Assembly (NCBI RefSeq): GCF_017254845.1
Contig: NZ_JAFKCU010000006.1
Location: forward strand, 1 to 64,000
DNA: 64,000 nucleotides
From: Algoriphagus pacificus
Lineage (GTDB): Bacteria; Bacteroidota; Bacteroidia; Cytophagales; Cyclobacteriaceae
Reading direction: 5' to 3'
Shown here one piece after another: positions 4,125 to 44,407 of the stretch (positions are counted from its first letter, which is position 1; every line of letters starts with the position of its first letter). The notes beneath the pieces were generated by a model that saw only the letters and a program-made list of their open reading frames with translations, searched no databases and was not told the origin of the DNA. Made by a program: the position numbers and the translations under genes.

Positions 4125-4365
4125 AAATTTAAAATGGATTGGAGAATGATAATGAGAAATGAAGAATTAAAAATGAAGAATGAGGAGTGAAAGTCAGAAG
4201 GATAAAGTGAGAAAGCTGAAAAGACGGAAGACAGTGATCAGTCTCAGTGGGCAGTTAATTCAGAAGGATAAAGCCTGCCTACCGGAGGTAGGTTAGAAAG
4301 CTGAATTAAGAATGAGGAATGCTAAATGAGGAATGTTGAATGGTCCATGTGGCGATTTTTGATCA

Positions 4366-4487
4366 GACCCCGGAGGGGTCTAATATCAATAGCCCAGGGT
4401 TTCAACCCTGGGTAAAAAAGGAATACCTATGTATCAGCGCTGGGCCGGGATCGTCTTTCGGAGAGGATGGCGTGACGCCAGCAAGAG
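4366..4487 (+). repeat. REP-like repeat R2, copy A
   Basis: GACCCC-GGGGTC hairpin, then a second hairpin (AGCCCAGGGT..ACCCTGGGT), then CAGCGCTGG and a GCCAGCAAGA tail. The same modular order recurs at 5317, 15502, 45863 and 46306. Confidence 0.8.
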
Positions 4488-4732
4488 GAACACAAAAACG
4501 GATTGGAAATCCTATGATAAAGGTTCTGGATTACAAATCCAGAACAGCGAGGATATTTGATTTATGATCTTGGATACCAAATAAAGGATTGTAATCATGT
4601 ACGCGAGTGGAGACACTCGCTATGGCTAAATAATCTAAAAAGATCCACCTGCGACACGAATCGCATTGAGAGAATGGTCTGTGAAGACCCGCCTGCGGAC
4701 GGGCAGGCACAGACCAAGGATTGTAATCATTA

Positions 4733-5006
4733 ACGCGAGTGGAGACACTCGCTTGGGCTAAATGTGTGGTTATTGAATCAAAAAACCTTCGGGGTTTTGG
4801 AAACCCCAAAGGTTTTGGTAAGCGGCGTTAAGTAAATCTGGTATTAAGCAACTTTACTATAAGTTAACTAATTAGCTCCAATGATTTACTCTTTTAGGTG
4901 ATTATTATCAAATAAAAAAGGGCGGCCCTGTGAAACCGCCCCACAGCCCAAAAATGCAAGGATTGGACTGCAAAAAATGTAAAGGCAGCCAATGGCTGCG
5001 AGATAT
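4733..5006. repeat. 274-bp direct repeat R4, copy 1
   Basis: Nearly identical to 5494-5767, offset by exactly 761 bp. It contains a GCGAGTG/CACTCGC hairpin, a CCTTCGGGG..CCCCAAAGG hairpin, a GGGCGG..CCGCCC hairpin and an AGCCAATGGCT palindrome. Confidence 0.85.
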
Positions 5007-5316
5007 TCAATCCCCCTAACCCCCTTTATAAAGGGGGAGTTGTTTAGGGTTCAAAATTGAATAATAGAATAAAACCTAATTGGTCTGTGAGACCCGCCTT
5101 CGGACGGGCAGGCACAGACCATGGTTGAAAACAAATAAACGAGATCGCCACGCTTTGCAAAAGCAAGCTCGCGATGACGGTAAAAAGAGGCTCATTCCTC
5201 TCGAAAGCTTGACAGTAGGCAGTCTCAGATAGCAGTAGACAATGATAAAGCCTAAAAGCTTAATTAAGAATACTGAATGAGGAATGTTGAATGGTTCATG
5301 TGGCGAATTTTGATCC

Positions 5317-5438
5317 GACCCCAACGGGGTCAAATATTAATAGCCCAGGGTTTTAGCCCTGGGTATGAAGTAATGGTATTTCACCAGCGCTGGCTCGAGC
5401 ACAGCAATTGGAAACGAAAAGGTTTTGCCAGCAAGATG
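5317..5438 (+). repeat. REP-like repeat R2, copy B
   Basis: Same module order as copy A (4366-4487): GACCCCAACGGGGTC, then AGCCCAGGGT..GCCCTGGGT, CAGCGCTGG and GCCAGCAAGATG. The preceding 30 bp also match copy A. Confidence 0.8.
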
Positions 5439-5493
5439 AAAACAGATCGCATTGAGAGAATGGTCTGTGAAGGCACAGACCATGTTTGGGAAG

Positions 5494-5767
5494 ACGCGAG
5501 TGGAGACACTCGCTTGGGCTAAATGTGTGGTTATTGAATCAAAAAACCTTCGGGGTTTTGGAAACCCCAAAGGTTTTGGCAAGCGGCGTTAAGTAAACCT
5601 GGTATTAAGCAACTTTACTATAAGTTAACTAATTAGCTCCAATGATTTACTCTTTTAGGTGATTATTATCAAATAAAAAAGGGCGGCCCTGTGAAACCGC
5701 CCCACAGCCCAAAATTGCAAGGATCGGACTGCAAAAAATGTCAAGGCAGCCAATGGCTGCGAGATAT
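5494..5767. repeat. 274-bp direct repeat R4, copy 2
   Basis: Second copy of 4733-5006 with only a few substitutions, which implies recent duplication of this non-coding block. Confidence 0.85.
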
Positions 5768-6228
5768 GCCAGCTCTTAGCTGGCGAAATATAGCCTCCTG
5801 CGGAGGCTGAAATATTAATCTTTTAAATGGTCTGTGGGACCCGCATTCTGGCGGGCGGGCACAGACCATGGATTAGGAGGCTTCGACTCCGCTCAGCCTG
5901 ACAGGTTAGCAATTGTAAATGAACTCAAAATGGTCTGTGGAGACATAGACCATGGACGAATGACCCGCCTGCGGACGGGCAGGCACAGACCATGGTTGAA
6001 AACAAATAAACAAGATCGCCACGCTTTGCAAAAGCAAGCTCGCCTTCCTACCGGAAGGCAGGCGATGACAGTAAAAAGAGGCTCATTCCTCTCGAAAGCT
6101 TGAGTTGAGAGGCAAGCTTGCAACTGATGAACCTCCCAAAGGGAGATGCCGAAAACCCTTTTTTAGAGTAGGCAAACAACCTGAAACGGTTTTCCTGTTT
6201 TTGATCGGTTAAAAAACGGGACATAACG

Positions 6229-6513
6229 ATGAATAAATTAATGAAATACCTTCCAGCCTTTGCCTTGGTATTGGCTTCAGGACTGGCTGTGGCAGTGAAT
6301 CTGCCTGAAGGCCCAATTGAAAATCCTCCTTCCAAAATCTGGACACCAGATGTCGATGAGGATTCAGGTTACCGTGAGATCACCTCAGAAGTCCTAGGCA
6401 CCAATTTTCAATGCAACAGCGGTGGTCCGGAATGTCGGGTTCAGTTTCATAATGATGACCCGATGACAGGTACTAAGTCTGTTTTGACGGCAGGGACTTA
6501 TAATGCGCTGTAA
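6229..6513 (+). CDS. DUF6520 family exported peptide
   Basis: This 94-residue protein starts MNKLMKYLPAFALVLASGLA, a clear signal peptide, followed by a short mature part with two Cys (FQCNSGGPEC) and a typical ending TAGTYNAL. This matches DUF6520, a small secreted Bacteroidota family of unknown function. It is isolated, follows the repeat mosaic and faces the SusD gene convergently, with a hairpin terminator between them. The two Cys may form a disulfide (inference). Confidence 0.75.
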   Translation: MNKLMKYLPAFALVLASGLAVAVNLPEGPIENPPSKIWTPDVDEDSGYREITSEVLGTNFQCNSGGPECRVQFHNDDPMTGTKSVLTAGTYNAL

Positions 6514-6534
6514 GTATCCGATAGTCTGAATTTG

Positions 6535-6565
6535 AAATCCCGAGGGTTTTTGGCCTTCGGGATTC
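6535..6565. terminator. Rho-independent terminator between DUF6520 and SusD genes
   Basis: AATCCCGAGGG / CCTTCGGGATT stem with a short T-rich loop, followed by TCTTTCTTT on the plus strand. It sits between two convergent genes and can serve both. Confidence 0.75.
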
Positions 6566-6570
6566 TTTCT

Positions 6571-7923
6571 TTATCGCTCATTCTGACGGATTCCGGTCAA
6601 TTGGATTTCCTCCTGTGGAATCGGGAAAACATACTTTGGAGATTCAGGCTCAAGCTTTACCAAATTTCCATCTATTGTTCTTTCCAAGGTTTTCGAAAAT
6701 CCGGTTTCCTGATTCAATCTCCTCAGATCTGAAAACCGAATTCCACGACCTACCAGCTCTTTCTGCCGCTCCTCCAATATTCTTCGAAGCAGATCATCCC
6801 CTCTCCCTTGAAGCTCTGGACTTTTTCCCTCTTCATACCTTCTGGAGAGGAAAGACCCCATTATTTCCAAGGACTCCTCTTCCCTGCCCGTCCTAATCAA
6901 TCCTTCTGCAGCCATTAATTCGAGTTCGCCTACACTCAAACCTCCAAAGAGTGAGAAATTTCCAGTAAGCCTGCCTCTATATAAATACCTGTTTATCCCC
7001 ACTGAATCAAAATATGCCGGAAACCGAAGGTCCTTTTCTTCATATTTTTCCATCAAAAGGGTGTCTAAAAACACTTCAGGAGAAGAGCTTAGCCTTACCG
7101 AAACCAATTCTGAATAAAAGACAGTCTCATCCCCAAAGATCACAAAGGGACGGCTCTGACTTACATCCAGCTCATTAAAGTCAAATCGGCCTGTATAAAT
7201 CGATAGTGCTTCCATGGCCGATTCGGACACTTTTTCGAACTCAAACATGACTAAATAAACTCTTGCCAAGGCACCCAAAGCAGCAGCTTTTGTTGGACGG
7301 GTTTTGGGAACTTGGTTTTCCGGAAGAAGACTGACAGCCCTATTTAGATCATCCAAAACCTGTTGGTATGAGCTTTCCAAATCACTGCGAACAGCCTTTT
7401 CATTGATATCGGGACTGTTCTTTAATACTATCCCCAACAAAGCATCATTTCCACCTTCTTTTTGGTAGGCCGGTGCAAACTCCTGCAATAACTGAAAATA
7501 TGCATAGCCTCTGTGGAACAAGGCCTCTCCCCTAAGCTGGTCCAACTCGGGTTGATCTGAGGAAGGTAAATTCTCCAGAGATTCCAAGGCAATATTGGCA
7601 TAAAACACCTGCTGGTAAGGCACAAACCAATCGTCGATCCTATCTCCCTGGAAGGGATCATCCAGCCATTTATAAGTCCCAACTTCTGAATTACTCATGC
7701 CTGCCAAGCCTGCCTCTGTAATGAAAAACTCATCACCTGCATGGATATTCAAAACTGGCTGTCGGTTAAATACATTGGTATTATCCAATAAAGCCCTGAC
7801 ATCTGCTATAGAACTGGGAACGACCAGACTGTTGTCTGGCTTGGGATCCAGGAATTCCCCACATCCGCTGAGCATAATCATAAAGACCATGCCCCATGTA
7901 TTTATTAAATTTCCTTTTTTCAT
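6571..7923 (-). CDS. RagB/SusD family outer-membrane lipoprotein
   Basis: The start is placed at the ATG at 7923 because the protein then opens with a lipoprotein signal, MKKGNLINTWGMVFMIMLSGC, with lipobox Cys 21; upstream in-frame codons would spoil it. About 450 residues, with SusD-type TPR-like helices, FHRGYAYFQLL near residue 135, and the conserved C-terminal FPIPQEEIQLT. SusD proteins cap the SusC barrel and bind the substrate outside the cell. It lies 136 bp downstream of the SusC gene. The substrate cannot be predicted, since no glycoside hydrolase or peptidase is adjacent. Confidence 0.88.
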   Translation of the reverse strand: MKKGNLINTWGMVFMIMLSGCGEFLDPKPDNSLVVPSSIADVRALLDNTNVFNRQPVLNIHAGDEFFITEAGLAGMSNSEVGTYKWLDDPFQGDRIDDWFVPYQQVFYANIALESLENLPSSDQPELDQLRGEALFHRGYAYFQLLQEFAPAYQKEGGNDALLGIVLKNSPDINEKAVRSDLESSYQQVLDDLNRAVSLLPENQVPKTRPTKAAALGALARVYLVMFEFEKVSESAMEALSIYTGRFDFNELDVSQSRPFVIFGDETVFYSELVSVRLSSSPEVFLDTLLMEKYEEKDLRFPAYFDSVGINRYLYRGRLTGNFSLFGGLSVGELELMAAEGLIRTGREEESLEIMGSFLSRRYEEGKSPELQGRGDDLLRRILEERQKELVGRGIRFSDLRRLNQETGFSKTLERTIDGNLVKLEPESPKYVFPIPQEEIQLTGIRQNER

Positions 7924-8059
7924 AGAATGAATAATTGATAAAGGGGCTGTGGAATCCGAAAATCCCACAGCAGAGGAGAGATTTGGCAGGGAGGTAATAT
8001 GCTCCCGATAGAAACCAGTATGAAGAAAGCTTCCTCTTTTCCCTTTGGTAAAACATTGG

Positions 8060-11000
8060 TTAAAAATCCAGGCTCAGGCCTACAGCCACACTTTTCCTGG
8101 GTCGGTTCCATCCATAGTCGGGATCCCAAGTGGAATCCGTCTTTTTCCAGAGTATTCCCAGATTATTGGCATAGAGGAAGAACTCTGCCTTTCGGAAGCT
8201 TTTCAAAAAGCCTTCCCCAGCAAGTTTTGGGCTGTATCCCAAGCGGATATCCTGCAATCGGATATGATCACCTTTTTCCACCAGCACTTCTGCCATAGAA
8301 TAGAATCGGTCTCGAAAGGTATTTCTGGAAGCAGGCATAGAAGGGATTTGAGTTATCAATTCATCTCCTGGCTCCTGCCAACGATCTGCAAAATCGGAAT
8401 GTCCCCCTCGAGCCATGAAAATGGTATTGTACTGGATAGATGATCTTTTGAAATAATAGCCGAACCTGTAGGATATATTTGCTGATATACTGAAAGGCCC
8501 ATAGGAGAAGGTATTCCTGATTGAACCAAAAGTGGTGGGTCTGGCAGGACCATTGTAAAGAATATTTTCCATGGTTGCCCCATTGACGATAGTCCTGTAA
8601 TCCTCAGAAAGCTCTCCATCCACATATCCTATCGGAGCTCCTGTTTCCGGATTCAGCCCAGCCCAAGGTAAACTGTATACCCCAAACAAAGGCCTCCCCT
8701 TCACTGGGAAATAAGTTCCTCCCAATCCTGCATCAGCATAATTCAATAGATTACTGACCACAGGTTCTATTTCATAAGAAGTCACTTCTTCCTTCAGCCC
8801 TGAAAGCAGCAGCACCGTGTTCCATTGGAAGGCTCCCCTCAGGTTCTTGCTTTCCAACATCAGATCATATCCTTTGGTACGCGTACTGGCATTGTTGCCA
8901 GTGAAAAACTGGATCCCAGCACTGGGAGCATAGGGAGACTGGCCGATCAGGTCCAGACCTTCCTTCCAATAGAATTCCAAAGTACCAGAGATCCTGTCTT
9001 CCTTGGTAGAAAAATCAAGTCCCAGATTCGTGATTTTGATCCGCTCCCATCTCAGGTTCCTGTTTGGGGAATTTACCACCTGCGCATATGGCAGTTGGGT
9101 CAGGTAATTGTTGGAAATAATCTGGGCCGTAGTAAATGCCGAAAGACTTCTGTCCACATTTCCATTGTATCCATAGGATCCCCGCAACTTCCAATAAGGA
9201 ATAGCTTTCCATTTATAGAACCCCTCTTCACTACCTGTCCAACCCAGCCCTGCTGACCAAAGAGGAACCGCTTTTTGGTTTGTGGCAACCCCAAATAAAT
9301 TGGAAGCATCCTTTCTCACACTTGCATTCAGCAAGTAGCGTTTTTTATAGATCAAAGCTGCATTAGCAAAAAGGGAATAAAAGCGGTCTTTTCCACCGGA
9401 AAGCCCATCCTGATAGGGAATCCTGGAAGTCAACCAGGAATCATTGAACTGGGGAAACAAAGTGGTATAATCTACCGGAAGCGTAGTGGACCGGTCCTTA
9501 TCAAAGCCATAGTATCTAACCGAGGAACTCTCCCGATCCAAGGCTTTCAGCTCCGCTCCTGTCAATGCATCCAATCTCCAGTCTTCCTTCCAAGAATGGC
9601 TGTATTCCAAAAAGCCTCTCAGGGAATGGCTGTTGGATCTTACAAAAGACTGATCCCAGATTCCTCCCAGCGGGATGTTTCTTTGCAAATTCCCGCTTTC
9701 ATCTATTTCGGTAAACAGGTTGATCAGTTCCCTTGCATAATAGCTATCCTGATGATACAGTGTTTCATTGGAGCTTGATTGCTGCCAATATTGGTAGAGT
9801 AATTTGGCATTCAGGCCTTTCAATAGCTGATAATCCAGCCCCAGATTAATCCGCCAATCATCCGAACGCATATGGCTAGGACTTTTGCCGATTTCATCCA
9901 ATGGTATGTAATTCCAGTCCAAAAGGCCCTGCTGTCTTGCCTCCTCTTTGAAGGCATTGCTGAATTGGCGGTTCAGTATGGCAGGTCTTCCCGACTCATC
10001 TTTCAAGCTGGCATAAGGATACATGTCCTGAAGAGAAGTGAAATAAAGATCCTCCGGACCTGCATTTTGGTCGATGGAAAGAGTCTTGGTTCCATAAAAA
10101 CCCAGTTGAATCCCCAAACGGTCTTTTAGTGCCTTGTATCCGTTTTTGATATTAAGCGTCAATCGATCAGAGGAATTGCCTACTACCGGCAACTGCTGAT
10201 GATCATAACCCAGGGCCACCCGGTAATCGATCTGGTCACTTCCCCCAGAAAGCGCGAGGCTGTATTGTTGGTTGACTTGGGTACGGTAAAGGTAGCGGTT
10301 CAGGTCATTTCGGAGATCCTGTCTTTCCAAGGAAGCCAGTTGTGAATTCACTTCCTGATCTGAAAGTAATCCCTGCTTTTGTTTATTAAGGATTTCCACC
10401 ACAGGAGTCACTGCAGGGCGGGATGAACTGTTCAAAGTAGAATTATAATAGCCGGTAGCAAAGAGCTGCTTTTCCACAGCTATGTAATCGGAAACGGATA
10501 GGTTTGGAGCAAGAAAAGGATCAGGATGTTGGATCCAATTGGTATTGGCCATCAGGCTGACCTGCATTTTTTCAGAAGCTTTTCCGGATTTGGTGGTGAT
10601 GACGATCACCCCGTTACCTGCTCTCGCCCCCCAGATGGAAGCCGCAGCAGCATCTCTTAATACCGTGATAGATTCCACATCGTTGGGATTGATATCCTCC
10701 AGATTGCCGTCAAAGGGAAAATTATCTATGACGATCAAAGGCTGTGAAAAGCGGCCCAAAGTACTTCTACCACGGATAGAAATAGGATCCCTCCCCGTAT
10801 CACCAGTCCGGTTGAAAATCAGACCGGAAGTCACGTCTTCCAATCTGTCAATCAGGTTGGTGCTGACCCTTCGATCTACCAGTTCTTCGTCAAGAGAAAC
10901 AAAGGAACCCGAGGCCCTGCTGCGTGGGATTTCCTGATAACCTGTGGAAACCACTTCCACTGCATCCAGATCCAAATTGATGGAGTTCATCTCTAGGATC

Positions 11001-11287
11001 AGTTCTTGGGATAGAGGTAATTCCAGTTTTGTACTTAAGGTCTGGTAACCCAGAAACTGGACAATCAGCTCGTAATCACCCGGTTCAGCATTCAGGATAA
11101 ATCTCCCTTCCTGATCGCTGATTACCGTCTGTCGCTTTGGGATCAGGGTGATCATTGCACCTGGGAGGGGTAAACTTGATTCACTATCCACAACCTTACC
11201 TTTAAGCGGTACTTGCTGGGCCATCACAGGAATACTTCCCAATAGAGACAAGAGGAATAAAATAATGAAATATGATGTATTTTTCAT
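8060..11287 (-). CDS. SusC/RagA family TonB-linked outer-membrane receptor
   Basis: A 1075-residue protein. Signal peptide (residues 1-23, ending VMAQ), carboxypeptidase-regulatory-like domain (25-105), TonB-box region VEVVSTGYQEIPRSRASGS (about 111-130), plug domain with SIRGRSTLG and the family-typical VLRDAAAASIWGARAGNGVI, then a long beta-barrel ending in the aromatic-terminated VAVGLSLDF. It imports a ligand across the outer membrane, powered by TonB, together with the SusD partner downstream. Its start overlaps the stop of the TlpA-like gene by 4 bp, so the three genes form one operon. Confidence 0.92.
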   Translation of the reverse strand: MKNTSYFIILFLLSLLGSIPVMAQQVPLKGKVVDSESSLPLPGAMITLIPKRQTVISDQEGRFILNAEPGDYELIVQFLGYQTLSTKLELPLSQELILEMNSINLDLDAVEVVSTGYQEIPRSRASGSFVSLDEELVDRRVSTNLIDRLEDVTSGLIFNRTGDTGRDPISIRGRSTLGRFSQPLIVIDNFPFDGNLEDINPNDVESITVLRDAAAASIWGARAGNGVIVITTKSGKASEKMQVSLMANTNWIQHPDPFLAPNLSVSDYIAVEKQLFATGYYNSTLNSSSRPAVTPVVEILNKQKQGLLSDQEVNSQLASLERQDLRNDLNRYLYRTQVNQQYSLALSGGSDQIDYRVALGYDHQQLPVVGNSSDRLTLNIKNGYKALKDRLGIQLGFYGTKTLSIDQNAGPEDLYFTSLQDMYPYASLKDESGRPAILNRQFSNAFKEEARQQGLLDWNYIPLDEIGKSPSHMRSDDWRINLGLDYQLLKGLNAKLLYQYWQQSSSNETLYHQDSYYARELINLFTEIDESGNLQRNIPLGGIWDQSFVRSNSHSLRGFLEYSHSWKEDWRLDALTGAELKALDRESSSVRYYGFDKDRSTTLPVDYTTLFPQFNDSWLTSRIPYQDGLSGGKDRFYSLFANAALIYKKRYLLNASVRKDASNLFGVATNQKAVPLWSAGLGWTGSEEGFYKWKAIPYWKLRGSYGYNGNVDRSLSAFTTAQIISNNYLTQLPYAQVVNSPNRNLRWERIKITNLGLDFSTKEDRISGTLEFYWKEGLDLIGQSPYAPSAGIQFFTGNNASTRTKGYDLMLESKNLRGAFQWNTVLLLSGLKEEVTSYEIEPVVSNLLNYADAGLGGTYFPVKGRPLFGVYSLPWAGLNPETGAPIGYVDGELSEDYRTIVNGATMENILYNGPARPTTFGSIRNTFSYGPFSISANISYRFGYYFKRSSIQYNTIFMARGGHSDFADRWQEPGDELITQIPSMPASRNTFRDRFYSMAEVLVEKGDHIRLQDIRLGYSPKLAGEGFLKSFRKAEFFLYANNLGILWKKTDSTWDPDYGWNRPRKSVAVGLSLDF

Positions 11288-12948
11288 GGGGCAAGGAATT
11301 TAGGTTCAGAGATCTTTTTGAGTACGAGTACAGGTATTTGCTCCTCTCGGAGGATCAGGTCAAAGCCCTGTTTCTGAAGCGCATTTTTGAGGCTTTCGGG
11401 ATCAGAAAGCCTTACTCTTAATTCCAGATCGATTGGATAATCAATCCCTGTTAGGTTGATGACAGGATAAGGGCTTTGGCTCAAAAAATAGGCGTTGAGA
11501 TGGTACACAAATCCCTGAAGAGGATAGTTTGTCATTTTCAATCCCTGAGAAGTGGAATAGGATTTTTTAGAACCTGATGATTCGGGGTAATTCCTCCCTT
11601 CCTGCTGTAGCAGGGCATACACTTTTCGGGTTCGCCGCTCTACCTTGGCTTCAATATGCGGGAAGTAACGCTTCAGGTCCTCCCGCATCAATTGGTAGAT
11701 GTCCAGGTTCTTGGGCGTAATGATTTCATACCCGAAGACATGGGTTCCCTCTGCCATCCAGTCATTATAATCCATCCCTGATTTATCAGACCAGAGTTCC
11801 TCAGGTTCGAAACCTTCTTGGATAATCCTGTTCCATCCGAAATAGTCTACCAGATCCTTTCCTGAAAAGGCAGTTTGGTAGTGGTAAAGCAGACTCATGT
11901 TTATGATCCGAATCTGGTTCATATCCTCAAATCTTTGGATCAGGGAGCCGGAAACCTCGGGGATATAGCCAGTCAGAGCTGATTCAAACCAGAGATTTTT
12001 ATTTTTGAGCTCTGGAGTCTCTGTCAATAGTCTGGCTTCTATGGGTATTTCTATCTGCCTGTCTTCTTTGGCCCGGAAGAGATTCTCTCCCGAATCCAGA
12101 AGTTTGTCCAGCTTTTCCTGACTCAGGTCCTCAATTCCCGTAATCGCCAACACCTTACCTTCCCGATCCAGAATCACCACATGCGGGATAATAAAATGTG
12201 GGAAATATGCCGCAAGTTTTTGGGCATTGACCACGAGAGGCAATTCCATTTTTTCAATCTCAGGATAAGCTTGAAGCAGTGCCTGGATTTGTTTTTCCTG
12301 AAATACCGTGACAGGAATAATTTCAATATCCTGCTTATAGGAATCTTTTAGCATATCCAAATGGGGAAGCGAAGCAATACTTGCCGTGCAGGTAGGAGCC
12401 CAAAATTCCAGGATCACATACTTGCCCAGATAATCATCCAATCGGAGCTTATCATCATCAAAATTCAGCACTTCGGAGAACTCTATTCCAGATGGGATCT
12501 GATCACCGATAGTGAGAGTATCGGAACTGGCCTCCCCATCGGCAGGAGAGCCTAAACTCCCCTGCCCTGCGGGAATAGCGGTATCAACTAAACTAAATCC
12601 CTTTTTATTATAGTCATCAGTCTTCGGTCGACAGTCGACAGCCGATTCGTTTACGTCACTGCGAGGAGCCCCTAAGGGTGACGCGGCAGTCTGATTTAAA
12701 ATTTCATTTCCAACAAGTTGGCTTTCTACTCTGACTTCAAACCCCGGACCGCCATCTATATCCAGTGCGGTAACAGAGTAGAAAGTATCGGAGCGGGTTA
12801 CCCCACTCCGATGGGATCCTGCCAAAGCAGGCAATCCGGGGCAATCAACCAACTCAAACCCCGGTGGTGAACAAGCAACTTGTGCTTTTAAAGTGCTTCC
12901 GTAAAGACATAGCAATACCAGGAAGCATGAGAATAGAATTTTTTTCAT
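11284..12948 (-). CDS. TlpA-like thioredoxin-fold protein of a SusCD operon, CxxS active site
   Basis: A 554-residue protein with a signal peptide (1-22). A thioredoxin-like domain (about 145-275) shows YVILEFWAPTCTASIASLP: the usual WCxxC is replaced by TCTAS, with Cys near residue 186 and Ser instead of the resolving Cys. The C-terminal 280 residues are unassigned. It is first in the TlpA-SusC-SusD operon, a common Bacteroidota arrangement. Residues about 80-125 look foreign: they contain QTAASPLGAPRSDV, the translation of the dispersed 'ATTGCGAGG..GGCAATCT' repeat, and a VDCRP segment from a GTCGACAGTCGAC string, all in frame. The CxxS suggests a disulfide-binding or isomerase-like role rather than a reductase (inference). 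Confidence 0.75.
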   Translation of the reverse strand: MKKILFSCFLVLLCLYGSTLKAQVACSPPGFELVDCPGLPALAGSHRSGVTRSDTFYSVTALDIDGGPGFEVRVESQLVGNEILNQTAASPLGAPRSDVNESAVDCRPKTDDYNKKGFSLVDTAIPAGQGSLGSPADGEASSDTLTIGDQIPSGIEFSEVLNFDDDKLRLDDYLGKYVILEFWAPTCTASIASLPHLDMLKDSYKQDIEIIPVTVFQEKQIQALLQAYPEIEKMELPLVVNAQKLAAYFPHFIIPHVVILDREGKVLAITGIEDLSQEKLDKLLDSGENLFRAKEDRQIEIPIEARLLTETPELKNKNLWFESALTGYIPEVSGSLIQRFEDMNQIRIINMSLLYHYQTAFSGKDLVDYFGWNRIIQEGFEPEELWSDKSGMDYNDWMAEGTHVFGYEIITPKNLDIYQLMREDLKRYFPHIEAKVERRTRKVYALLQQEGRNYPESSGSKKSYSTSQGLKMTNYPLQGFVYHLNAYFLSQSPYPVINLTGIDYPIDLELRVRLSDPESLKNALQKQGFDLILREEQIPVLVLKKISEPKFLAP

Positions 12949-36744: not shown

Positions 36745-38282
36745 CAAAATTGAAAATAAATGAAATCCATTTTTTGAGTAAAAACTCCCCAATACATAAT
36801 AGAAAAAGCTACAAGGAAATATACTGGATATCGATACCATTTAAGGGGTATTATTTCAATCCAATTAGATCGTTTTCTTCCTATCCATTCCAGTACAAGA
36901 AAAATCACCAATGCTACCCTTAAATGGTAACCAAACCAATTAAAGCTATTGGGAAATAAGGGGTTGGAAAATGTTCGTATTAAATACCCCAATGCATCTC
37001 CTATGCTATTAGCTCTGAAAAAAACCCAAGCTACACTAACCAAAGTAAATGTTGATATCATTTGAATTAGCTCTTTAAATGAGGGAATCATATGGTCCCC
37101 TTCATTTAAATGAACTCTATTCTTCCCAATCAAAAAGATCGGAATAAATAAAGCTGCATGGATCCCTCCCCAAGCGATAAAAGTCCAGTTGGCTCCATGC
37201 CAGAAACCTGAGACCAGGAATACGATAAAGATATTGCGGATGGCTTTAACTTTAGTAACTCTACTCCCACCTAAAGGGATGTAAACATAATCCCTAAACC
37301 ATGTAGATAATGAAATATGCCATCTACGCCAGAACTCAGCTATATCTCTACTGAAATAGGGAGTTCGGAAATTTGTCATCAGATCGAAGCCAAAAAGCTT
37401 GGCTACTCCTATGGCTATATCCGAATAGCCTGAGAAGTCTCCATAGATCTGAAAGGCAAAGAGAATAGCTCCCATGATAAGCTCTAATCCTGAAGCAGTT
37501 TGATAATTCTCGAATATGGGATTGACTACCAAAGCACAGTTGTCAGCGATCACCATTTTCTTAAAGAGACCCCAAAGAATGAGTTTCATTCCATCAGATC
37601 CTTGTTGGTATTCGAATTCCCTCTTCTTAAAGAACTGAGGCAATAAGTTGGAAGCCCTTTCAATAGGACCTGCTACCAGTTGAGGGAAGAAAGCAACGAA
37701 AGTAAAGAAGGCGATTGGATCTTTGGTTGGCTTTAGCTTCCCTTTATAGACGTCTATGGAATAGCTTAAAGTCTGAAAGGTATAGAAAGAAATCCCAACA
37801 GGAAGTATCAAGTTAAGCGTGCTGATATGAGGTTGGAAACCTAATAAGGAGATAAAGTCAGCTGCAGAGTCTATGAAGAAATTGAAGTATTTGAAGAAGG
37901 CTAGTAGGCCGAGGTTGAAGGTGAGGGAGATGGTGAGGTAGAGTCTCTTTCCTGTCCACAGACCACTGACCATGGACCACGGCTGTTTTTTGGTTAAGTT
38001 TTTATTTCCCGTCTCCTTTCCAGGACCTTCAATAGTTGAATTTGCAGAGTTTTCTGTGGACTGCTGACTGTCGACTGTCGACATCTTTAATCCACACCAG
38101 TAATCCACTGCCGAACTCGCAATAATCAACCCCAGAAACCTCCAATCCCACCAACCATAAAACACATAGCTAGCTAGTAATAGAAAGGCATTCTGCAGCT
38201 TTAGGTTCTTCTGAAATACAAACCAGTAAAGTCCGAAAACTATGGGTAGGAAGATCAGGAAAGAAATAGAATTAAAAAGCAT
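36744..38282 (-). CDS. MBOAT family O-acyltransferase (AlgI-like) with repeat-derived insertion
   Basis: A 512-residue polytopic protein with AlgI-family hallmarks: LPVGISFYTFQTLSYSIDVY, FPQLVAGPIERA, YGDFSGYSDIAIG, EFWRRWHISLSTWFRDYVY and the active-site-type FWHGANWTFIAWGG. It transfers acetyl groups across the membrane for O-acetylation by the coupled SGNH protein. Residues about 66-112 (STVDSQQSTENSAN... KQPWSMVSGLWTG) are unlike the family: they translate GTCGACTGTCGAC and GTCCACAGACCACTGACC repeats inserted between two membrane helices. A partial copy of its 5' end lies at 39170-39286. Confidence 0.88.
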   Translation of the reverse strand: MLFNSISFLIFLPIVFGLYWFVFQKNLKLQNAFLLLASYVFYGWWDWRFLGLIIASSAVDYWCGLKMSTVDSQQSTENSANSTIEGPGKETGNKNLTKKQPWSMVSGLWTGKRLYLTISLTFNLGLLAFFKYFNFFIDSAADFISLLGFQPHISTLNLILPVGISFYTFQTLSYSIDVYKGKLKPTKDPIAFFTFVAFFPQLVAGPIERASNLLPQFFKKREFEYQQGSDGMKLILWGLFKKMVIADNCALVVNPIFENYQTASGLELIMGAILFAFQIYGDFSGYSDIAIGVAKLFGFDLMTNFRTPYFSRDIAEFWRRWHISLSTWFRDYVYIPLGGSRVTKVKAIRNIFIVFLVSGFWHGANWTFIAWGGIHAALFIPIFLIGKNRVHLNEGDHMIPSFKELIQMISTFTLVSVAWVFFRANSIGDALGYLIRTFSNPLFPNSFNWFGYHLRVALVIFLVLEWIGRKRSNWIEIIPLKWYRYPVYFLVAFSIMYWGVFTQKMDFIYFQF

Positions 38283-38285
38283 TAA

Positions 38286-39110
38286 TTACTTTACTCTAAA
38301 CCAAAATTTAGGTAGCACAACATCATCTTTGTCCACGTTGGGTTTGTCTAAAGGATGTGGAAATTTCGAAAAATAATCTGATGATGAAAATCTATCATTT
38401 CTTAATAATGTAATTTCCATCAGAGGAGGGATTTCAATACCATTTATGAATATTGGCCTCCCGTTATTATTTGGATGTAGATGCACTATCGAATGATTTG
38501 AAAGTAATTTTTCAAAAAAACGATTGAGTTGATTGAAAAAATAACGGTCAGCTATCCTATCAAGATGATGTAATTCAATCACAATTATCCTAAATCTGTC
38601 AAGCAAAGGCCTAGAAAGAGCAAGAATAACATCATACTCATAACCTTCAATATCCATTTGAAGTAATAATTCAGAATTTTTATTATCTGACAAGTTTTGG
38701 TTTACCCATGTGTCCATTGTCATATAATTACCCATATCATCAGCTCCAATGAACTTTTTACTAAATTCAAATTTTGGATGATCAATAGTAGGATTTTCAA
38801 TTGAATAATCAGCCATAAAAACTTCAATTCCCATCTCTGCTAATTCAAATTCAAATCTTGATTCAATGTCAACCCCAGGAGAAAAACATGTTTCAATATC
38901 TTTTAAATCATTTGGCAAAAGATATCCCCCATCACCATTTGGTCCAATTCTTATAAGTTCAATTTTTGGGTCAATTGGGTGGAGTTTTTTTAAAAGCGAT
39001 TTAATTTCATCATTTGAAACTGCACCTGTAAGATTCAACTCTAATCTTCTTGAAATTGGCTTTGCTATCCTATAAAATAGGTTTCTTATTTTTTTCTTTA
39101 AAAAGTTCAT
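38286..39110 (-). CDS. FkbM-like methyltransferase
   Basis: A 274-residue protein with IGPNGDGGYLLPNDL near 55-70, FSPGVDIESRFEFELAEMG and a central LLQMDIEGYEYDVIL, the DIEG-Y-E motif of FkbM-type enzymes; HPNNNGRPI follows. It probably O-methylates a sugar. It is inserted between an MBOAT 5' remnant and the intact MBOAT gene, so it may have arrived by recombination. Its ATG overlaps the TGA of the remnant frame (ATGA). Confidence 0.75.
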   Translation of the reverse strand: MNFLKKKIRNLFYRIAKPISRRLELNLTGAVSNDEIKSLLKKLHPIDPKIELIRIGPNGDGGYLLPNDLKDIETCFSPGVDIESRFEFELAEMGIEVFMADYSIENPTIDHPKFEFSKKFIGADDMGNYMTMDTWVNQNLSDNKNSELLLQMDIEGYEYDVILALSRPLLDRFRIIVIELHHLDRIADRYFFNQLNRFFEKLLSNHSIVHLHPNNNGRPIFINGIEIPPLMEITLLRNDRFSSSDYFSKFPHPLDKPNVDKDDVVLPKFWFRVK

Positions 39111-39286
39111 TTTTTGGTGGTCACGGGACTTATCTGAGTTATTAAAAGAAATCCATTGAGGGGTAAAATATAGCTAGCTAGTAATAGAAAAGCATTCTGA
39201 AGCTTCAAGTTCTTCTGAAATACAAACCAGTATAGTAAGAATACTATTGGAAGGAAGATCAAGAAGGTGAAGGAATTGAAAAGCAC
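39107..39286 (-). pseudogene. 5' remnant of an MBOAT gene
   Basis: The minus-strand frame from GTG at 39286 reads LFNSFTFLIFLPIVF and then WFVFQKNLKLQNAFLLLASY, matching the first about 38 residues of the MBOAT at 38282. After LLASY the match stops, the frame runs on for about 20 codons and ends at TGA 39107-39109, overlapping the FkbM start. It is best read as a truncated MBOAT gene left by insertion or recombination of the FkbM gene. Confidence 0.75.
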
Positions 39287-39714
39287 TTATGAATTAGAAA
39301 TTGAGAATGAGGAATTGGTTGTTCGTTGTTCGTTGTTAGGTCTCTAACAGTGGGCAAGTGTTGGTTCGTATTTGGGATACTATCGGACTGATTACTGTAA
39401 ACTGAGACTGTTAACTATCTAATAACAGCTTCGCCCTTTCACTCACGATATTGAGTTTGCGTGATTCTACTTGAATTGACTGAGTAATAAATTTACTCGG
39501 TTGATTTGGATAAGCAAATTTTAGGATGTTAGATTTTGGATTTATGCCTTATGAATACGTGACGCTCCCCTCTCGCTTTAGGAGAGGGGCTGGGGGTGAG
39601 GTAGTTTTTCGCCGAAGGCTTATTTCAGCGAAGCGTATTTCAAGCGACGAAGGAGCCAATATTTCAAGTAAGGTACGAGCTTCTATCTCGTCTTTGGTGT
39701 ATTTCAGTTCCTGC
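39287..39714. repeat. Repeat spacer downstream of the WecE-like gene
   Basis: Contains GTTCGTTGTTCGTTGT, AGCTTCGCCCTTTCACTC (also at 47591), an ACTGAGTAA..TTTACTCGGTT hairpin (also at 47789), a CCTCTC..GGAGAGGGGCTGGGGGTGAGG unit, and an R6 block of ATTTCAGCGAAGCG / CGACGAAGGAGC strings reaching the stop codon of the aminotransferase. Confidence 0.75.
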
Positions 39715-40884
39715 CTACCTTTGACTTATTGCAGGCAATTCATAGAATAATGGCAACCTCAGCAAGCAATTTGAAAAGCGATCAGAATTGGGCAGACTGC
39801 GCTTATATTGATTCGGGAAATGCATTTTGGAGAATTCTGACTTGTGAAGACTTTGGTAATGGAAAACAGCTAAGATGCCTTGCTCTTTTAGCGCCTCCGA
39901 ATAAGCCGTTCGAGTAGCTTGTGATGGGAAGAGGAGGTAGAAGAGATGGGCATTGGCCATAAATGAAGAATGAGAAATGTGGAATGAGGAATTAGGGGGA
40001 TATTCATTCATCATTCTTAATTCATCATTGCTAATTGCCTTTAGAAATTGTAGGGATAGGGATTTTAAATTACTGGAATCTCCCTTGAAAAAACGAAAAT
40101 AGTCCTCCCAAATGGCTTTTCTTCTTTCCTGGATCTTGTCTAGGTTTTCTAATTGTGCCCAGAGGTACGCTGCATTGAGTTCGGATGGTAAGAAAGAGCT
40201 TCCTATATCCACCCATCCATATTTATTTACTTCCCCACGGAAAAAGGCAGCCCTGTCTGTTCCTTTTTCCCAAAGGATTTCGGCTCTTTTAATGAATTGA
40301 GGATCATTGATCATCAGCATCCCTCCTTCTCCACATTGGATGTTTTTGGTTTCATGAAAACTCATGCATCCCAAGTGTCCAATACTTCCTAAGGCCTTCC
40401 CCTTATAAAAGCTATTTATTGCCTGAGCCGCATCTTCAATCACAAATAGATTATGCCTATTTGCTATCTCCATGATTGTATCCATCTCGCAAGCTTCTCC
40501 CCCATAATGAACCACTACAATTGCCTTGGTTTTAGGAGTGATAAGCTCTTCGATCAGCCTTTCATCCATATTGGGGTGATCTGAATGGCTATCCACAAAG
40601 ACAACTTTTGCCCCCCTTAGCACAAAAGCATTGGCAGAGGAAACAAAAGTGAAACTGGGAATGATAACCTCATCTCCAGCTTGGATATCACAAAGAATCG
40701 CTGCCATTTCCAGAGCATCTGTGCAAGAGTTGGTCAACAGGCATTTTTGAATTCCATAGCGCTGCTCAAAGAACTCCTGGCAAAGATGGGTATAGTGGCC
40801 ATTCCCGGAGATTTTACCGCGGTTGATCGCATCTTGGATGTATTCCAGTTCCTTCCCGGTTTGAAAGGGTTTGTTGAAAGGAAT
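39715..40884 (-). CDS. wecE: DegT/DnrJ/EryC1/StrS aminotransferase (WecE/RffA-like), damaged or non-canonical start
   Basis: PLP-dependent sugar aminotransferase: TNSCTDALEMAA, GDEVIIPSFTFVSSANAF, VIEDAAQA, the RffA-type SFHETKNIQCGEGG with the PLP Lys, and KYGWVDIGSSFLPSELNAAY. Conserved N-terminal sequence IPFNKPFQTGKE is encoded up to the ATT at 40884, yet no ATG, GTG or TTG precedes it before the in-frame TAG at 40941; the DNA there is repeat sequence. An insertion near residue 285 (NDELRMMNEYPPNSSFHISH) translates AATGAGGAATTAG-type repeats. The C-terminus ends early (LPLFYELPAISQR) where an R6 repeat begins. It would make a 4-amino-4,6-dideoxy sugar nucleotide, acylated by the GNAT at 42930. 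It may be decaying or use a rare start. Confidence 0.72.
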   Translation of the reverse strand: MPFNKPFQTGKELEYIQDAINRGKISGNGHYTHLCQEFFEQRYGIQKCLLTNSCTDALEMAAILCDIQAGDEVIIPSFTFVSSANAFVLRGAKVVFVDSHSDHPNMDERLIEELITPKTKAIVVVHYGGEACEMDTIMEIANRHNLFVIEDAAQAINSFYKGKALGSIGHLGCMSFHETKNIQCGEGGMLMINDPQFIKRAEILWEKGTDRAAFFRGEVNKYGWVDIGSSFLPSELNAAYLWAQLENLDKIQERRKAIWEDYFRFFKGDSSNLKSLSLQFLKAISNDELRMMNEYPPNSSFHISHSSFMANAHLFYLLFPSQATRTAYSEALKEQGILAVFHYQSLHKSEFSKMHFPNQYKRSLPNSDRFSNCLLRLPLFYELPAISQR

Positions 40885-41483
40885 ATTCGATTTTAGATTT
40901 ATGATTTTAGATTTTTTGAAATACTGTTGAAATAGGCCCTAAGGGAGAAATATTACCGTCATTGCGCCTGCCCGCGGTGGCGGGAGCGAAGCGTGGCAAT
41001 CTCGTGGAAGGGAATATTAGATATATGATATTAGAAATACTTTGAAATACTGTTGAAATAGGCCCTTCGGGCGAAATACTTTGAAATAGATATAAGATAG
41101 CCCTAAGGGCAGATATGGAGAGATATAAGATGTAAGATATATGATTTATGATTTTTAGAAATACAGTTGAAATACTTTGAAATTGATATAAGATAGCCCT
41201 GCGGGCAGATAGGGAGATATGCTCCTTGCGGGAGCGAGATATTTAAAGTTTTGAATGAAATACAATTGAGATACTTTTGAAATACTCCCTTCGGGAGAAA
41301 TATTGATTGAAGAACAAATTATACTGGGACAGATTATTTCGCGAAGCGTATTTCAAGCGACGAAGGAGCTTCTATTTCGCCGCCTGCCTGCCGAAGGTAG
41401 GAAGCGTATATCAAGCAACGAAGGAGCTTCTATTTCGCCGAAGGCGTATTTCAGTGAAACTGTATTTCTTGCGACGAAGGAGC
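40885..41483. repeat. Composite repeat spacer (R8-R5-R6 array)
   Basis: GATTTTAGATTT strings, several GATACTGTTGAAATAGGCCCTTCGGG units, an ATTGCG..AGCGAAGCGTGGCAATCTCG unit with an 18-bp insertion (about 40964-41002), GCCCTGCGGGC hairpins, then an AACAAATTATACTGGGACAG block and R6 strings up to the GT2 stop. No gene. Confidence 0.8.
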
Positions 41484-42389
41484 CTATATCTCTTTTTCTA
41501 CAATATAAATCGGCCTATTTTTCACCCCTTCAAAGGTTTTTCCAATGTATAGCCCTACCATCCCCAGAGTAATCAAAAGAAAGCCAGTTAGAAGCCAGAT
41601 GGAGATAATCAAGGAGGCATAACCAGCTACAATAATTTCTCCTATCCAATATCTATAAAGGGTATAGATTGCAAAAAGGAATCCCGTTAATGCTATCAAA
41701 AAGCCTAGTTTGACAGTTAAGCGGATTGGCTTGTCGCTATAGGCCAGCATGATATCCAAGGCCAGGTTGAAGAGTTTTTTGAAGTTATAATTGCTGCTAC
41801 CCTCCTCTCTTTCCGCGTGGGTTACAGGAATGCTGCATTGCCTGAATCCCACCCATTTTACCATGGTGGGGAAATAACGGATGCTTTCCCGCATGCCGAT
41901 GATTTGATTTATGACTTTGCGATGGTAAATACCAAAGTTGGCAATACTTTCATCCTGCTGGGATCCTGTCAGCCAAGCTAGGGTTCGATAGAAAATCTTA
42001 GAAGAAAGTCTTTTGAAAAAGTTGTCCTGTCTGTTTACCCTTCTTGCCAAAACCACATCAAATCCCTTTTGAGCTTCCTTATGGAGATTTGGAATTTCTT
42101 CAGGTCTATCCTGCAGATCGCAGTCCATCACTACTACCCATTCTCCCTTTGCTGCATCTAGGCCTGCTGTAATGGCATAGTGTTGCCCGAAATTCCTAGA
42201 AAGCTTAATCCCTCTTATTTCGGGATGGATTTCTGCCAGTCTTTCGATCTCATGCCAGGAATTATCCGGACTGGCATCGTCTACTAAGATGATTTCATAC
42301 TCTTGATCCGGAATGCATGCTTTAATCCTGGAGACGAGTTCGCCGAGGGTATTTTCTGCGCGGTATAATGGAGAGATGATGGAGAGCAC
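41484..42389 (-). CDS. GT2 polyprenyl-phosphate glycosyltransferase (ArnC/GtrB-like)
   Basis: A 301-residue protein: SIISPLYRAENTLGELV, ILVDDASPDNSW, LSRNFGQHYAITAGLDAAKG, donor site VVMDCDLQDRPEEIP, then two C-terminal membrane helices (about 225-290). This layout is that of DPM1/ArnC/GtrB enzymes, which load a sugar onto undecaprenyl phosphate for use in the periplasm. It is flanked on both sides by repeat spacers; the R6 repeat abuts its stop codon. Confidence 0.88.
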   Translation of the reverse strand: MLSIISPLYRAENTLGELVSRIKACIPDQEYEIILVDDASPDNSWHEIERLAEIHPEIRGIKLSRNFGQHYAITAGLDAAKGEWVVVMDCDLQDRPEEIPNLHKEAQKGFDVVLARRVNRQDNFFKRLSSKIFYRTLAWLTGSQQDESIANFGIYHRKVINQIIGMRESIRYFPTMVKWVGFRQCSIPVTHAEREEGSSNYNFKKLFNLALDIMLAYSDKPIRLTVKLGFLIALTGFLFAIYTLYRYWIGEIIVAGYASLIISIWLLTGFLLITLGMVGLYIGKTFEGVKNRPIYIVEKEI

Positions 42390-42929
42390 TTTTGGAATTA
42401 AGAATTAGGAGTTAGAAATGAGGAATTATGAATTATGAATTTAAAATGATGAATTAAAAATGATTGCGGGTAGGTGGTTGATATTAGAAATACTTTGAAA
42501 TACTGTTGAAATAGGCCCTTCGGGAGAAATATTACCGTCATTGCGAGCACAGCGTGGCAATCTCGTGGATAGGAATTTAAGATTTCTGATTTTAGATTTT
42601 AGATTTTAGATTTTAGATTTTTTGAAATACTGTTGAAATACTCCCTTCGGGAGAAATACTACCGTCATTGCGAGCGAAGCGTGGCAATCTCGTGGAAGGG
42701 AATATTAGATATATGATATTAGAAATAGTTTGAAATACTGTTGAAATAGTCCCTTCGGGAGAAATATTGATTGAAGAACAAATTATACTTTGACAGATTA
42801 TTTCGCCGAAGGCTTATTTCAGCCGAGGTACGAGGGTCTATTTCGCGAAGCATATTTCGGGAGCGAAGCGATCCTATCTCGCCGAAGGCGTATTTCAGGC
42901 GACGAAGGAGCATGTATTTCTATTTAAGA
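42390..42929. repeat. Composite repeat spacer (R7-R8-R5-R6 array)
   Basis: Same module order and orientation as 40885-41483: GAATTAGGAATTATGAATT strings, GATTTTAGATTTTAG tandem, GAAATACTGTTGAAATA..CCCTTCGGG units, ATTGCGAGCGAAGCG..GGCAATCTCG (uninterrupted here), the AACAAATTATACTTTGACAG block, then R6 to the stop of the GNAT gene. No gene. Confidence 0.8.
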
Positions 42930-43586
42930 TTATCTTTTCCACCAATGATAAACATATACTTTTTCGATTAGGCTGTAACCAAGGGAAGTGTATAAGTTGC
43001 AAGCAGGGATATTTTGTTCTTGGGTGGGGATTTGTATGAATTGGGCTCCTTGACTTAAAGCCTTGGATTCTGCTGCTTTAACTAGTTTTTTACCCCAGCC
43101 TTTTCCTTGTTGTTTTTCAGAGACTGCGATTAGGCCTATTTTACCCATTTCTTTTTCTGTGTCGACTGTTACCATCCCTGCCAAATCTGGAGCGCTCAGA
43201 ATCTGCTTTCCTTCCCAAGCATTTTCTATCCAAATATTATAGAGATTTTCAAATTCTTTGTTCTTGAGTCTCCTGTCTAGCTTAAATCGGGAAAATGAAC
43301 CGCTTAGAAAAGCCAAGTCTATCAATTCAGGTACCAGCTCTCCCTCCCATTTTTGAACTTCTGTTTCTTCATGTATTTGCTTCAGTTCCTTTTGGAAAGT
43401 GAGTTTTGTGTCTACATGGACAATGTCCTGACTCTCAAATTGAACTGGGTTTTGGGAGAAAATATAGATGAGTTGGTAGTCCTTTGCTTCTTCCAAAAAC
43501 TCTTTTTCATTCCAATCTGATCCTTGGTTTGTTTTGCCTACGGGGTAATTGAAAAGGGAGGAGTCGAAGGGGAGTGGGGAGATCAA
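42930..43586 (-). CDS. GNAT acetyltransferase, WecD/RffC-like
   Basis: A 218-residue protein with an N-terminal domain (LPFDSSLFNYPVGK) and a C-terminal GNAT core: GKIGLIAVSEKQQGKGWGKKL (acetyl-CoA loop Q/R-x-x-G-x-G/A) and ACNLYTSLGY. The two-part layout and the opening 'pFDs.lF.yPvg' resemble WecD, which N-acetylates dTDP-4-amino-4,6-dideoxygalactose; the aminotransferase at 39715 would supply the substrate. Repeat spacers flank it on both sides. Confidence 0.78.
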   Translation of the reverse strand: MISPLPFDSSLFNYPVGKTNQGSDWNEKEFLEEAKDYQLIYIFSQNPVQFESQDIVHVDTKLTFQKELKQIHEETEVQKWEGELVPELIDLAFLSGSFSRFKLDRRLKNKEFENLYNIWIENAWEGKQILSAPDLAGMVTVDTEKEMGKIGLIAVSEKQQGKGWGKKLVKAAESKALSQGAQFIQIPTQEQNIPACNLYTSLGYSLIEKVYVYHWWKR

Positions 43587-44407
43587 TGGGGAATGAGGAA
43601 TTTAGAATGAAGAATGAAGAATTAGAAATGAGGAATTTAAAATGAGGAATTAGAAATGAAGAATGAAGAATGAAGAATTGGGGTAGAATAAGATTTTAGA
43701 TTTCTGATTTCTGATTTCTGATTTTTAGAGATACTGTTGAAATAGTCCCTTCGGGCGAAATATTACCGTCATTGCGCCTGCCCGCGGTGGCGGGAGCGAA
43801 GCGTGGCAATCTCGTGGAGAGGAATTTAAGATCTCTGATTTTAGATTTTAAATTTTTTGAAATACGGTTGAAATAGGCCCTGCGGGTGAAATATTACCGT
43901 CATTGCGAGCGAAGCGTGGCAATCTCGTTGATGAGAGTATTGGATTTTAGATTTCTGATTTTTGGAGATACGGTTGAAATAGGCCCTGCGGGTGAAATAT
44001 TACCGTCATTGCGAGCGAAGCGTGGCAATCTCGTTGATGAGAGTATTGGATTTTAGATTTCTGATTTTTGGAGATACTATTGAGATACTGTTGAAATACT
44101 CCCTTCGGGAGAAATATCTAAAGGAAATTGAAGATAGCCCTCCGGGCAGATAAGAAGAGATATTATAGGTAAGATTCTAATTTCACGAATTACGACATTT
44201 GAAAACGCCACGCTCTCCCTCTCTCTTTAGGAGAGGCCTGTCCCGATAGCAAAGCGTATCGGGAGGCTGGGGTGAGGTTTAGCTACATCAGCAAGGACCC
44301 GTTCTACCCCCGACCCCTAAAGGGGAGAAATTCGGGTCTACTTCTAACCTGCGATTCTGAAAGTTTTTAAATGAAATTGATGGCCTTATTAAATTTCACA
44401 AAAGCCT
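43587..44407. repeat. Composite repeat spacer, 0.8 kb
   Basis: AATGAAGAATTAG strings, GATTTCTGATTT tandems, three ATTGCG..GGCAATCTCG units (43769-43815 with the 18-bp insertion; 43894-43927 and about 44003-44035 without), several GATACGGTTGAAATAGGCCCTGCGGG units, a CTCTTTAGGAGAGG..GGCTGGGGTGAGG unit with a 28-bp insertion (about 44214-44279) and a CCCCGACCCCTAAAGGGGAG unit. No gene. Confidence 0.8.

Follow-up and report, generated by a model that had tools for sequence, protein, structure and literature searches.

Small dispersed repeats (SDRs) of cyanobacteria are dispersed, non-coding hairpins of 21-27 nt with precise insertion, found within each other as well as within other repeats. In 2008 Elhai et al. 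reportedly described the SDRs of Nostoc as 'very small mobile repeated elements'. The palindromic elements of Rickettsia are inserts that are retained in frame within protein genes. Sections of PMC3733652 and PMC6006769 report some repetitive extragenic palindromes (REPs) inserted within other palindromes and in genes, and the former also mentions the Rickettsia elements. The present analysis concerns short palindromic inserts in the first 64 kb of contig NZ_JAFKCU010000006.1 (C47, 238 kb) of Algoriphagus pacificus (genome of 5.28 Mb); this 64-kb stretch is called the window. Paired repeats in the window differed by a GC-rich palindrome of 18-28 nt that starts with CCTG. These palindromes are probably ultra-short dispersed insertion units, consisting of a CCTG end and a GC-rich hairpin, that are copied and joined by an enzyme acting in trans.

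The inserts, when read with CCTG first, formed one series (CCTGCCTACCGGAGGTAGG, CCTGCCTGCCGAAGGTAGG, CCTGCCTTCCGGTAGGAAGG, CCTGCCCGCGGTGGCGGG, CCTGCCCGTCCGCAGGCGGG and CCTGTCCCGATAGCAAAGCGTATCGGGA; Table 1). Those quoted by a first-pass annotation of the window, starting at positions 4274, 6043, 40967, 41383, 43777 and 44237, were all confirmed at their places. The GACCCGCC..GACGGGC inserts, which had been regarded as loose fits, proved to be members on the minus strand, namely CCTGCCCGTCCGCAGGCGGG and CCTGCCCGTCCGAAGGCGGG. The supposed longer relative at 44237 has the same CCTG tag but a different hairpin, and its best empty partner had 4 mismatches in 24, a level also reached by the controls given below (7/96 and 4/96). 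Near-exact empty partners defined a unit length of 16-23 nt, with up to about 30 nt in a second type. The main type reads CCTG followed by CCYNCC..GGNRGG, and the second type CCTG followed by TCCCGA..TCGGGA. Two folds were possible for the main type, CCTG plus a 6-bp hairpin and a full palindrome; of these, the former better described the CCTGTCCCGA type, which had variable interiors, and CCTGCCTTCCGGTAGGAAGG. One host, CGTCATTGCGAGCGAAGCG..GGCAATCTC, was matched by eye and fits the description of CGTC-tagged REPs in a section of PMC3733652.

To count empty partners, the 12-nt flanks on both sides of each unit were joined, its surroundings were masked over 100 nt in either direction, and mismatches were counted per 24 nt. 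The search covered 359 kb of the own genome (G000), mostly picked around matches, and stretches of a relative within the genus (G021); except for a blind sample of G021, the stretches in both genomes were mostly picked by CCTGCC matches. Shifted and random sites served as controls (96 of each in G000, 172 of each in G021). Partners with at most 2 mismatches were found for 24 of 48 palindromes in G000 and for 31 of 86 in G021, while all four control sets gave none (0/96 and 0/96; 0/172 and 0/172). Some of the G021 partners were further copies of the same palindromes, where units nest. At 3 mismatches the numbers were 28/48 and 46/86 with one random control match, and at 4 mismatches the controls rose to 7/96 and 4/96 in G000 and to 10/172 and 8/172 in G021. 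This count had been named as a check by the first-pass annotation, and it showed empty and filled pairs beyond chance.

A motif-free scan of 308 kb of G000 looked for gaps of 8-60 nt between 11-mers that adjoin each other elsewhere and yielded 41 gap groups. Eight of the ten gaps of 18-22 nt with a GC content of at least 0.60 were CCTG palindromes; the remaining groups were mostly AT-rich tandem units. The same scan with 10-mers gave 207 gap groups in G021. CCTG was the commonest tag among indels of the tag-plus-hairpin form, with 11 of 15 in G000 and 12 of 28 in the G021 stretches around matches. Nesting was seen among the matches listed for G021, where the host AGCTATGCCAGG^TTCAAGG was empty at L092:2875 (L-numbers denote fetched stretches) and filled by CCTGCCTACCGGACAGGCAGG at L085:2155; another such filled copy was in turn split by CCTGCCCTCCGGGAGGCGGG at L085:18132, with a variant at L082:7832.

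Inserts were also present within protein genes. In a multicopy gene, one copy of which matched DUF6090 weakly (E value 3.9e-7), a linker precedes a membrane segment. Among 72 distinct copies from the own and other genus genomes this linker had 11 residues in 60 and 18 residues in 12, with no other length in a search that allowed 6-40 residues; the loci were found with a filled query, and the 60:12 ratio is not a frequency. The extra 21 nt (7 residues) occurred at several linker positions and in some copies were CCTGCCTGGCCGGTAGGCAGG or clear relatives, but decayed or doubtful elsewhere (L202, L060); empty linkers lacked the CCTGCC arm. The peptide PAWPVGR is the in-frame translation of a unit in this gene. 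The statement of the first-pass annotation that the sequence is without coding capacity thus holds for the unit itself, but the unit is carried in frame in genes. Further open frames with a unit were a TlpA-like gene (L046) and two sensor-like paralogues (L035), all named by eye; a near paralogue of the TlpA-like gene did not align across the insert.

Single descent of the DUF6090-type insert was rejected, as a tree of the protein tails required 9 changes for 10 filled rows, at least 5 of them forced by starred branches. The filled rows were as scattered as shuffled labels (mean of 9.6 changes). The tree comprised 69 of the 72 copies and 10 of the 12 filled ones, with tails of at least 120 amino acids, and its bootstrap was not settled. 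The filled rows could likewise have been scattered by tails exchanging their N-termini, since L051_1 and L074_4 are well-supported tail sisters with different N-termini; the scatter is therefore taken as supporting only. The occurrence of related tails with different N-termini suggests module exchange. DUF6090-type genes (L034, L051, L074) gave up to 34 matches per genome and were often clustered.

An intact tRNA-Arg(CCU) gene lies at 11614-11686 of stretch L036 and lacks the CCTGCC arm. A copy starting at L036:11219, about 400 nt upstream, aligned with it except for three 20-nt gaps, which by our own reading lie ahead of the D-stem, where the D-loop ends and in the T-loop. Otherwise one base was missing from the copy and its 3' end had decayed. 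The inserts are CCTGCCTGCCGGTAGGCAGG, CCTGCCTGCCGGCAGGCAGG and, on the other strand, CCTGTCTACCGACAGGTAGA; two tRNA-Arg inserts, both near-perfect palindromes of 20 nt, showed no target duplication. In G021 a partial copy of an intact tRNA-Leu(CAA) carried a 22-nt insert at the D-loop, and the inserts of a second copy, beyond a GIY-YIG gene, aligned less cleanly. Three similar segments of stretch L041 held CCTGCCTGCCGGCAGGCAGG, with an intact tRNA-Met and two GIY-YIG genes nearby; one segment was aligned to the tRNA-Met and matched in parts.

The base 5' of CCTG was determined at 50 oriented sites, which were non-redundant within each of three sets and were included with or without an empty partner. 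It was G at 32, A at 13, T at 3 and C at 2 sites, giving a purine at 45 of 50. The 3' side of the unit at these sites showed no clear base preference. No target site duplication was found at the exact junctions of the exact pairs from the motif-free scan. The check on duplication and site preference proposed by the first-pass annotation revealed a preference for a preceding purine and, at exact junctions, no duplication. Among tag-plus-hairpin sites CCTG was found 40 times and the next tag 17 times, in stretches mostly picked around CCTGCC matches.

The pattern CCTGCCN{4,10}GGNRGG was counted in whole genomes, with the reversed pattern as a control; self-complementary copies are counted more than once because both strands were searched. 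The own genome contained 90 matches versus 3 of the reversed pattern. An excess was present in all 24 genus genomes counted, ranging from weak in G014 (47 vs 25) to strong in G021 (277 vs 9). The excess was slight in some genomes outside the genus (G024, 10 vs 7; G028, 3 vs 2). Among 148 genomes of the phylum, including the own genome, the distribution was patchy, with 118 vs 4 in G135, 129 vs 7 in G093 and 91 vs 2 in G164, but 1 vs 0 in G168 and 60 vs 177 in G169. Literature searches with the exact palindrome strings gave no match, and no paper naming a CCTG-tagged family was among the matches listed.

The own genome encodes two Y1_Tnp proteins, both with the signature Y---Q--HH, which was also present in L099 of G021. 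According to a section of PMC6006769, this signature marks subclass 1.2, an orphan group that occurs mostly in Cyanobacteria and Bacteroidetes and is listed without REPs. Of 83 Y1 matches examined, a subset of all matches, 57 had the subclass-1.2 signature, none had the class-2 signature and 26 were unclassified. Mobilisation by a REP-associated tyrosine transposase (RAYT) was rejected: the three Y1 genes seen in context had the subclass-1.2 signature and were flanked by other repeats as judged by eye, leaving a weak candidate. This rejection covers the examined matches; the 26 unclassified and the unfetched Y1 matches may include class-2 RAYTs. The element excess correlated with all Y1 counts (0.56 in 38 genomes, 0.48 in the genus) and modestly with subclass-1.2 counts (rho of 0.52, or 0.43 per Mb, in 38 genomes; 0.44 in the genus). 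Subclass-1.2-like Y1 genes adjoin repeat blocks of their own, seen by eye at L048:3400-4010, L099:14480-14510 and L099:15150-15215; these blocks (CCCGAAGGGATT..GACCCCAACGGGGTC and GGCTAAAGCC..GGAATGGGCTAAAGCC) are possible partners of the orphan family.

A small GIY-YIG gene lies between the tRNA-Arg copy and the intact gene in L036. Short-frame GIY-YIG genes were located within about 1 kb of CCTG units in 3 of 7 cases in G000 and 2 of 7 in G021, an association noticed post hoc in a count that omits weak matches in L210 and L212. Modules at L036:11219-11686, L041:6141-7100 and L213:1206-1900 combine small GIY-YIG genes with an intact tRNA and with damaged copies of tRNA-Arg, -Met or -Leu. In L214 three GIY-YIG matches alternate with four tRNA-like genes, of which two have an odd anticodon. 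These modules look like tRNA-linked nuclease cassettes; no paper on such a module was among the matches listed in the literature searches. A rather improbable proposal ranks the units among the smallest mobile DNA known and makes an orphan HUH enzyme of Y1 subclass 1.2 their mover, with the tRNA-linked GIY-YIG nuclease as a second candidate. The orphan family would thereby gain a substrate; Bacteroidetes and Cyanobacteria, from which it is mostly reported, are the two phyla with hairpin insertions this small.

There is good support for the discrete insertion of a mini-hairpin with a CCTG end. The unit stands as one block in other palindromic repeats, in its own copies, in frame within genes and in a tRNA copy. 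The tRNA-Arg copy with three inserts beside an intact gene and the 11- and 18-residue linkers of the DUF6090-type genes point to insertion rather than deletion. An enzyme acting in trans would copy the unit as a single-stranded hairpin and join it to the host at a nick or gap; by analogy with the ends of REPs and IS200/IS605 elements, the CCTG tag may define one end of the unit and the foot of the hairpin the other. The data suggest that these units belong to the smallest kinds of mobile DNA. The 'active, very short mobile sequence' of the first-pass annotation is supported as one family with discrete insertion; 'active' is not supported, as strain sampling comprised one genome per species and no recent event was dated.

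Several observations weigh against this reading. The blind sample of G021 (20 stretches, 400 kb) held 5 CCTGCC places and 4 CCTGTCCCGA hairpins, but none of its 6 tag-plus-hairpin indels had the CCTG tag, and the 81 non-tandem pairs whose 10-nt flanks matched exactly included none of the CCTG kind; when mismatches were allowed, partners were found at 3 (L108:378, L114:11820) and at 4 (L111:11598). Tag plus hairpin and full palindrome were indistinguishable in many copies. The DUF6090-type inserts of L051, L060, L065 and L202 and one tRNA insert lacked either an intact CCTG or a clear palindrome. Insertion at hairpin tips was rejected, since folded joined hosts showed no loop preference (8/25 vs 0.20; 6/39 vs 0.23) and the apex look of GGTCTGTG^CACAGACC was not general. 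No CCTG unit lay within the 1.5 kb shown around three Y1 genes (L048, L049, L099), where other repeats were seen by eye. The correlation with subclass-1.2 counts per Mb faded within the genus (rho of 0.26, p of 0.22), and G037 (45 vs 5) and G001 (23 vs 0) carry palindromes and have no Y1 match. Finally, 12 of 20 multi-copy palindromes had one flank kind.

Much of the copying is for this last reason attributed to copying of a composite host repeat, and both filled copies of the CGTC REP in the window hold the same insert. That immobile palindromes spread solely by gene conversion or amplification of such host repeats is nevertheless unlikely. The other 8 multi-copy palindromes had two or three flank kinds, which by eye were clearly unrelated for five of these palindromes, and a single host could hold different palindromes at one point or at adjacent points (four in the CGTC REP, three in GAGTCATG^CTCGATTT of G021). 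The inserts in DUF6090-type genes and tRNA copies and the nesting also argue against it. Host repeats that carry a unit then multiply, and part of the spread is due to amplification of hosts already carrying the palindrome. It is very unlikely that the filled state is old and that empty sites arose when slippage or SbcCD-type cleavage precisely removed an unstable GC-rich palindrome. Palindromes are deletion-prone, and presence or absence by itself gives no polarity, but the intact tRNA has no insert beside a copy with three, and the DUF6090-type linkers are empty in 60 of 72 copies and extended by 7 residues at several different positions.

Formation of the palindromes in place, through template switching or hairpin extension during replication with CCNGCC-type hairpins being favoured, would agree with their low sequence complexity, their variable lengths and loops and the variable interiors of the CCTGTCCCGA type. 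It is judged quite unlikely, given that the 5' tetranucleotide is constant while the hairpins differ and that the CCTGCC arm is absent from the intact tRNA-Arg and the empty DUF6090-type linkers. Retention of the units for a task, such as that of a terminator, an RNA stabiliser or a protein-binding hairpin, would make presence and absence a matter of selection. Such roles are discussed for REPs in PMC3733652, and 25 of 35 places examined lay outside any open frame of at least 90 amino acids. In-frame DUF6090-type inserts, dead tRNA copies and nested copies are unexpected of a regulatory site, and this explanation appears distinctly improbable.

Table 1. Inserts and empty partners in the window (^, point of insertion)
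Feature	Position	Strand	Remark
CCTGCCTACCGGAGGTAGG insert, CCTG + CCTACC/GGTAGG hairpin, between GATAAAG and TTAGAAAG	4274-4292	+	second partner elsewhere, 2/24 mismatches
Empty partner of 4274, AAGTCAGAAGGATAAAG^TGAGAAAGC	4191-4216	+	
CCTGCCCGTCCGCAGGCGGG insert within TGGTCTGTG..CACAGACCA palindrome	4688-4707	-	partner at 1 mismatch
Empty partner of 4688, GGTCTGTGAAG^GCACAGACC	5462-5481	+	
CCTGCCCGTCCGAAGGCGGG insert in another copy of GGTCTGTG palindrome	5093-5112	-	partner at 2 mismatches
CCTGCCCGTCCGCAGGCGGG insert in a further GGTCTGTG-type copy	5964-5983	-	inside a 40-nt gap of the motif-free scan
CCTGCCTTCCGGTAGGAAGG insert, hairpin CCTTCC/GGAAGG, in GTCATCG^CGAGC	6043-6062	-	partner at 1 mismatch
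Empty partner of 6043, AGCTCGCGATGAC	5166-5178	+	
CCTGCCCGCGGTGGCGGG insert in CGTC-type REP GTCATTGCG^AGCGAAGCG	40967-40984	+	partner at 0 mismatches
Second filled copy of CGTC-type REP, insert CCTGCCCGCGGTGGCGGG	43777-43794	+	partner at 0 mismatches
Empty copies (GTCATTGCGAGCGAAGCG) of CGTC-type REP for 40967/43777	42664-42691, 43899-43926, 44005-44032	+	
Variant empty copy of CGTC-type REP for 40967/43777	42537		
CCTGCCTGCCGAAGGTAGG insert in TTTCGCCG^AAGCGTATATC	41383-41401	+	0 partners within 4 mismatches (100-nt masking)
Looser empty partner of 41383, ATTTCGCCGAAGGCGTATTTC	41432-41452		
CCTGTCCCGATAGCAAAGCGTATCGGGA = CCTGTCCCGATA-GCAAAGCG-TATCGGGA, CCTG + TCCCGATA/TATCGGGA hairpin, in TTAGGAGAGG^GGCTGGGGTGAGG	44237-44264	+	
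CCTGCCTGCCGGTAGGCAGG, intergenic	46242-46261	.	related host L040:4548, whose own partner has 3 mismatches

The best named relative of the SusD-like protein of the window was from Algoriphagus resistens (66% identity; the own genome was possibly left out by the comparison). In the A. resistens stretch L120, judged syntenic by eye, the intergenic region was far shorter than the mixed-repeat block of about 2 kb in the window (4125-6200), and the 9.3-kb locus contained no CCTGCC unit. Hence the repeat block at 4.1-6.2 kb looks like lineage-specific repeat growth, as far as these sequences indicate. AT-rich arrays with 7- and 14-nt steps (e.g. AGAATTAAAAATGA) are interleaved with CGTC-type REPs at 40880-44120 and 4100-4340 of the window, and such arrays explain many of the remaining indels of the motif-free scan. 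A DUF559 (endonuclease-like) gene of 125 amino acids (44408-44785, minus strand) adjoins the repeat block that ends with the insert at 44237.

The hairpin inserts of 18-21 nt with their empty sites, nesting, DUF6090-type hotspot and thrice-hit tRNA copy offer a natural assay for the movement of such short DNA. They would extend tiny REP- or SDR-like mobility to the Bacteroidota with a new tag, and would provide testable substrates for two orphan enzyme groups, Y1 subclass 1.2 and the tRNA-linked GIY-YIG proteins. SDRs, Rickettsia palindromic elements and REPs are earlier examples of short dispersed repeats in this size range, and the kind is not unprecedented. The CCTG units are slightly shorter than the Nostoc SDRs and resemble these non-coding hairpins of about 20 nt in their nesting and their empty and filled pairs, a likeness in the way of working. 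They differ from SDRs in phylum, sequence, the CCTG end, the preceding purine and the inserts in coding regions and tRNA remnants. The likeness to the Rickettsia elements is an analogy only and lies in the in-frame insertion of a palindrome (+21 nt in 12 of 72 DUF6090-type copies, some decayed), but the units here are far shorter, with 21 nt or 7 residues in all 12 filled copies. Like REPs, they have a conserved tetranucleotide 5' of a short hairpin and many copies, many of these being equally full palindromes; unlike REPs, they carry the tag CCTG instead of the GTAG/GGAG or CGTC of the REP superfamilies, measure mostly 18-21 nt and had no cognate TnpA_REP (RAYT, class 2) signature among the 83 Y1 matches examined, of which 26 were unclassified. 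The lack of a target site duplication in the exact pairs and at two of the tRNA-Arg inserts sets them apart from miniature inverted-repeat transposable elements and other DDE transposon derivatives. IS200/IS605 elements produce no target duplication either. Their ends are described in PMC6006769 as hairpins with a 5' tetranucleotide; at the CCTG units, however, no insertion sequence, no second end and no conserved target tetranucleotide were seen, only the purine before the unit. Compared with these systems, the new features are the CCTG tag, the phylum, the coding form with its fixed 21 nt and the inserts in a tRNA copy.

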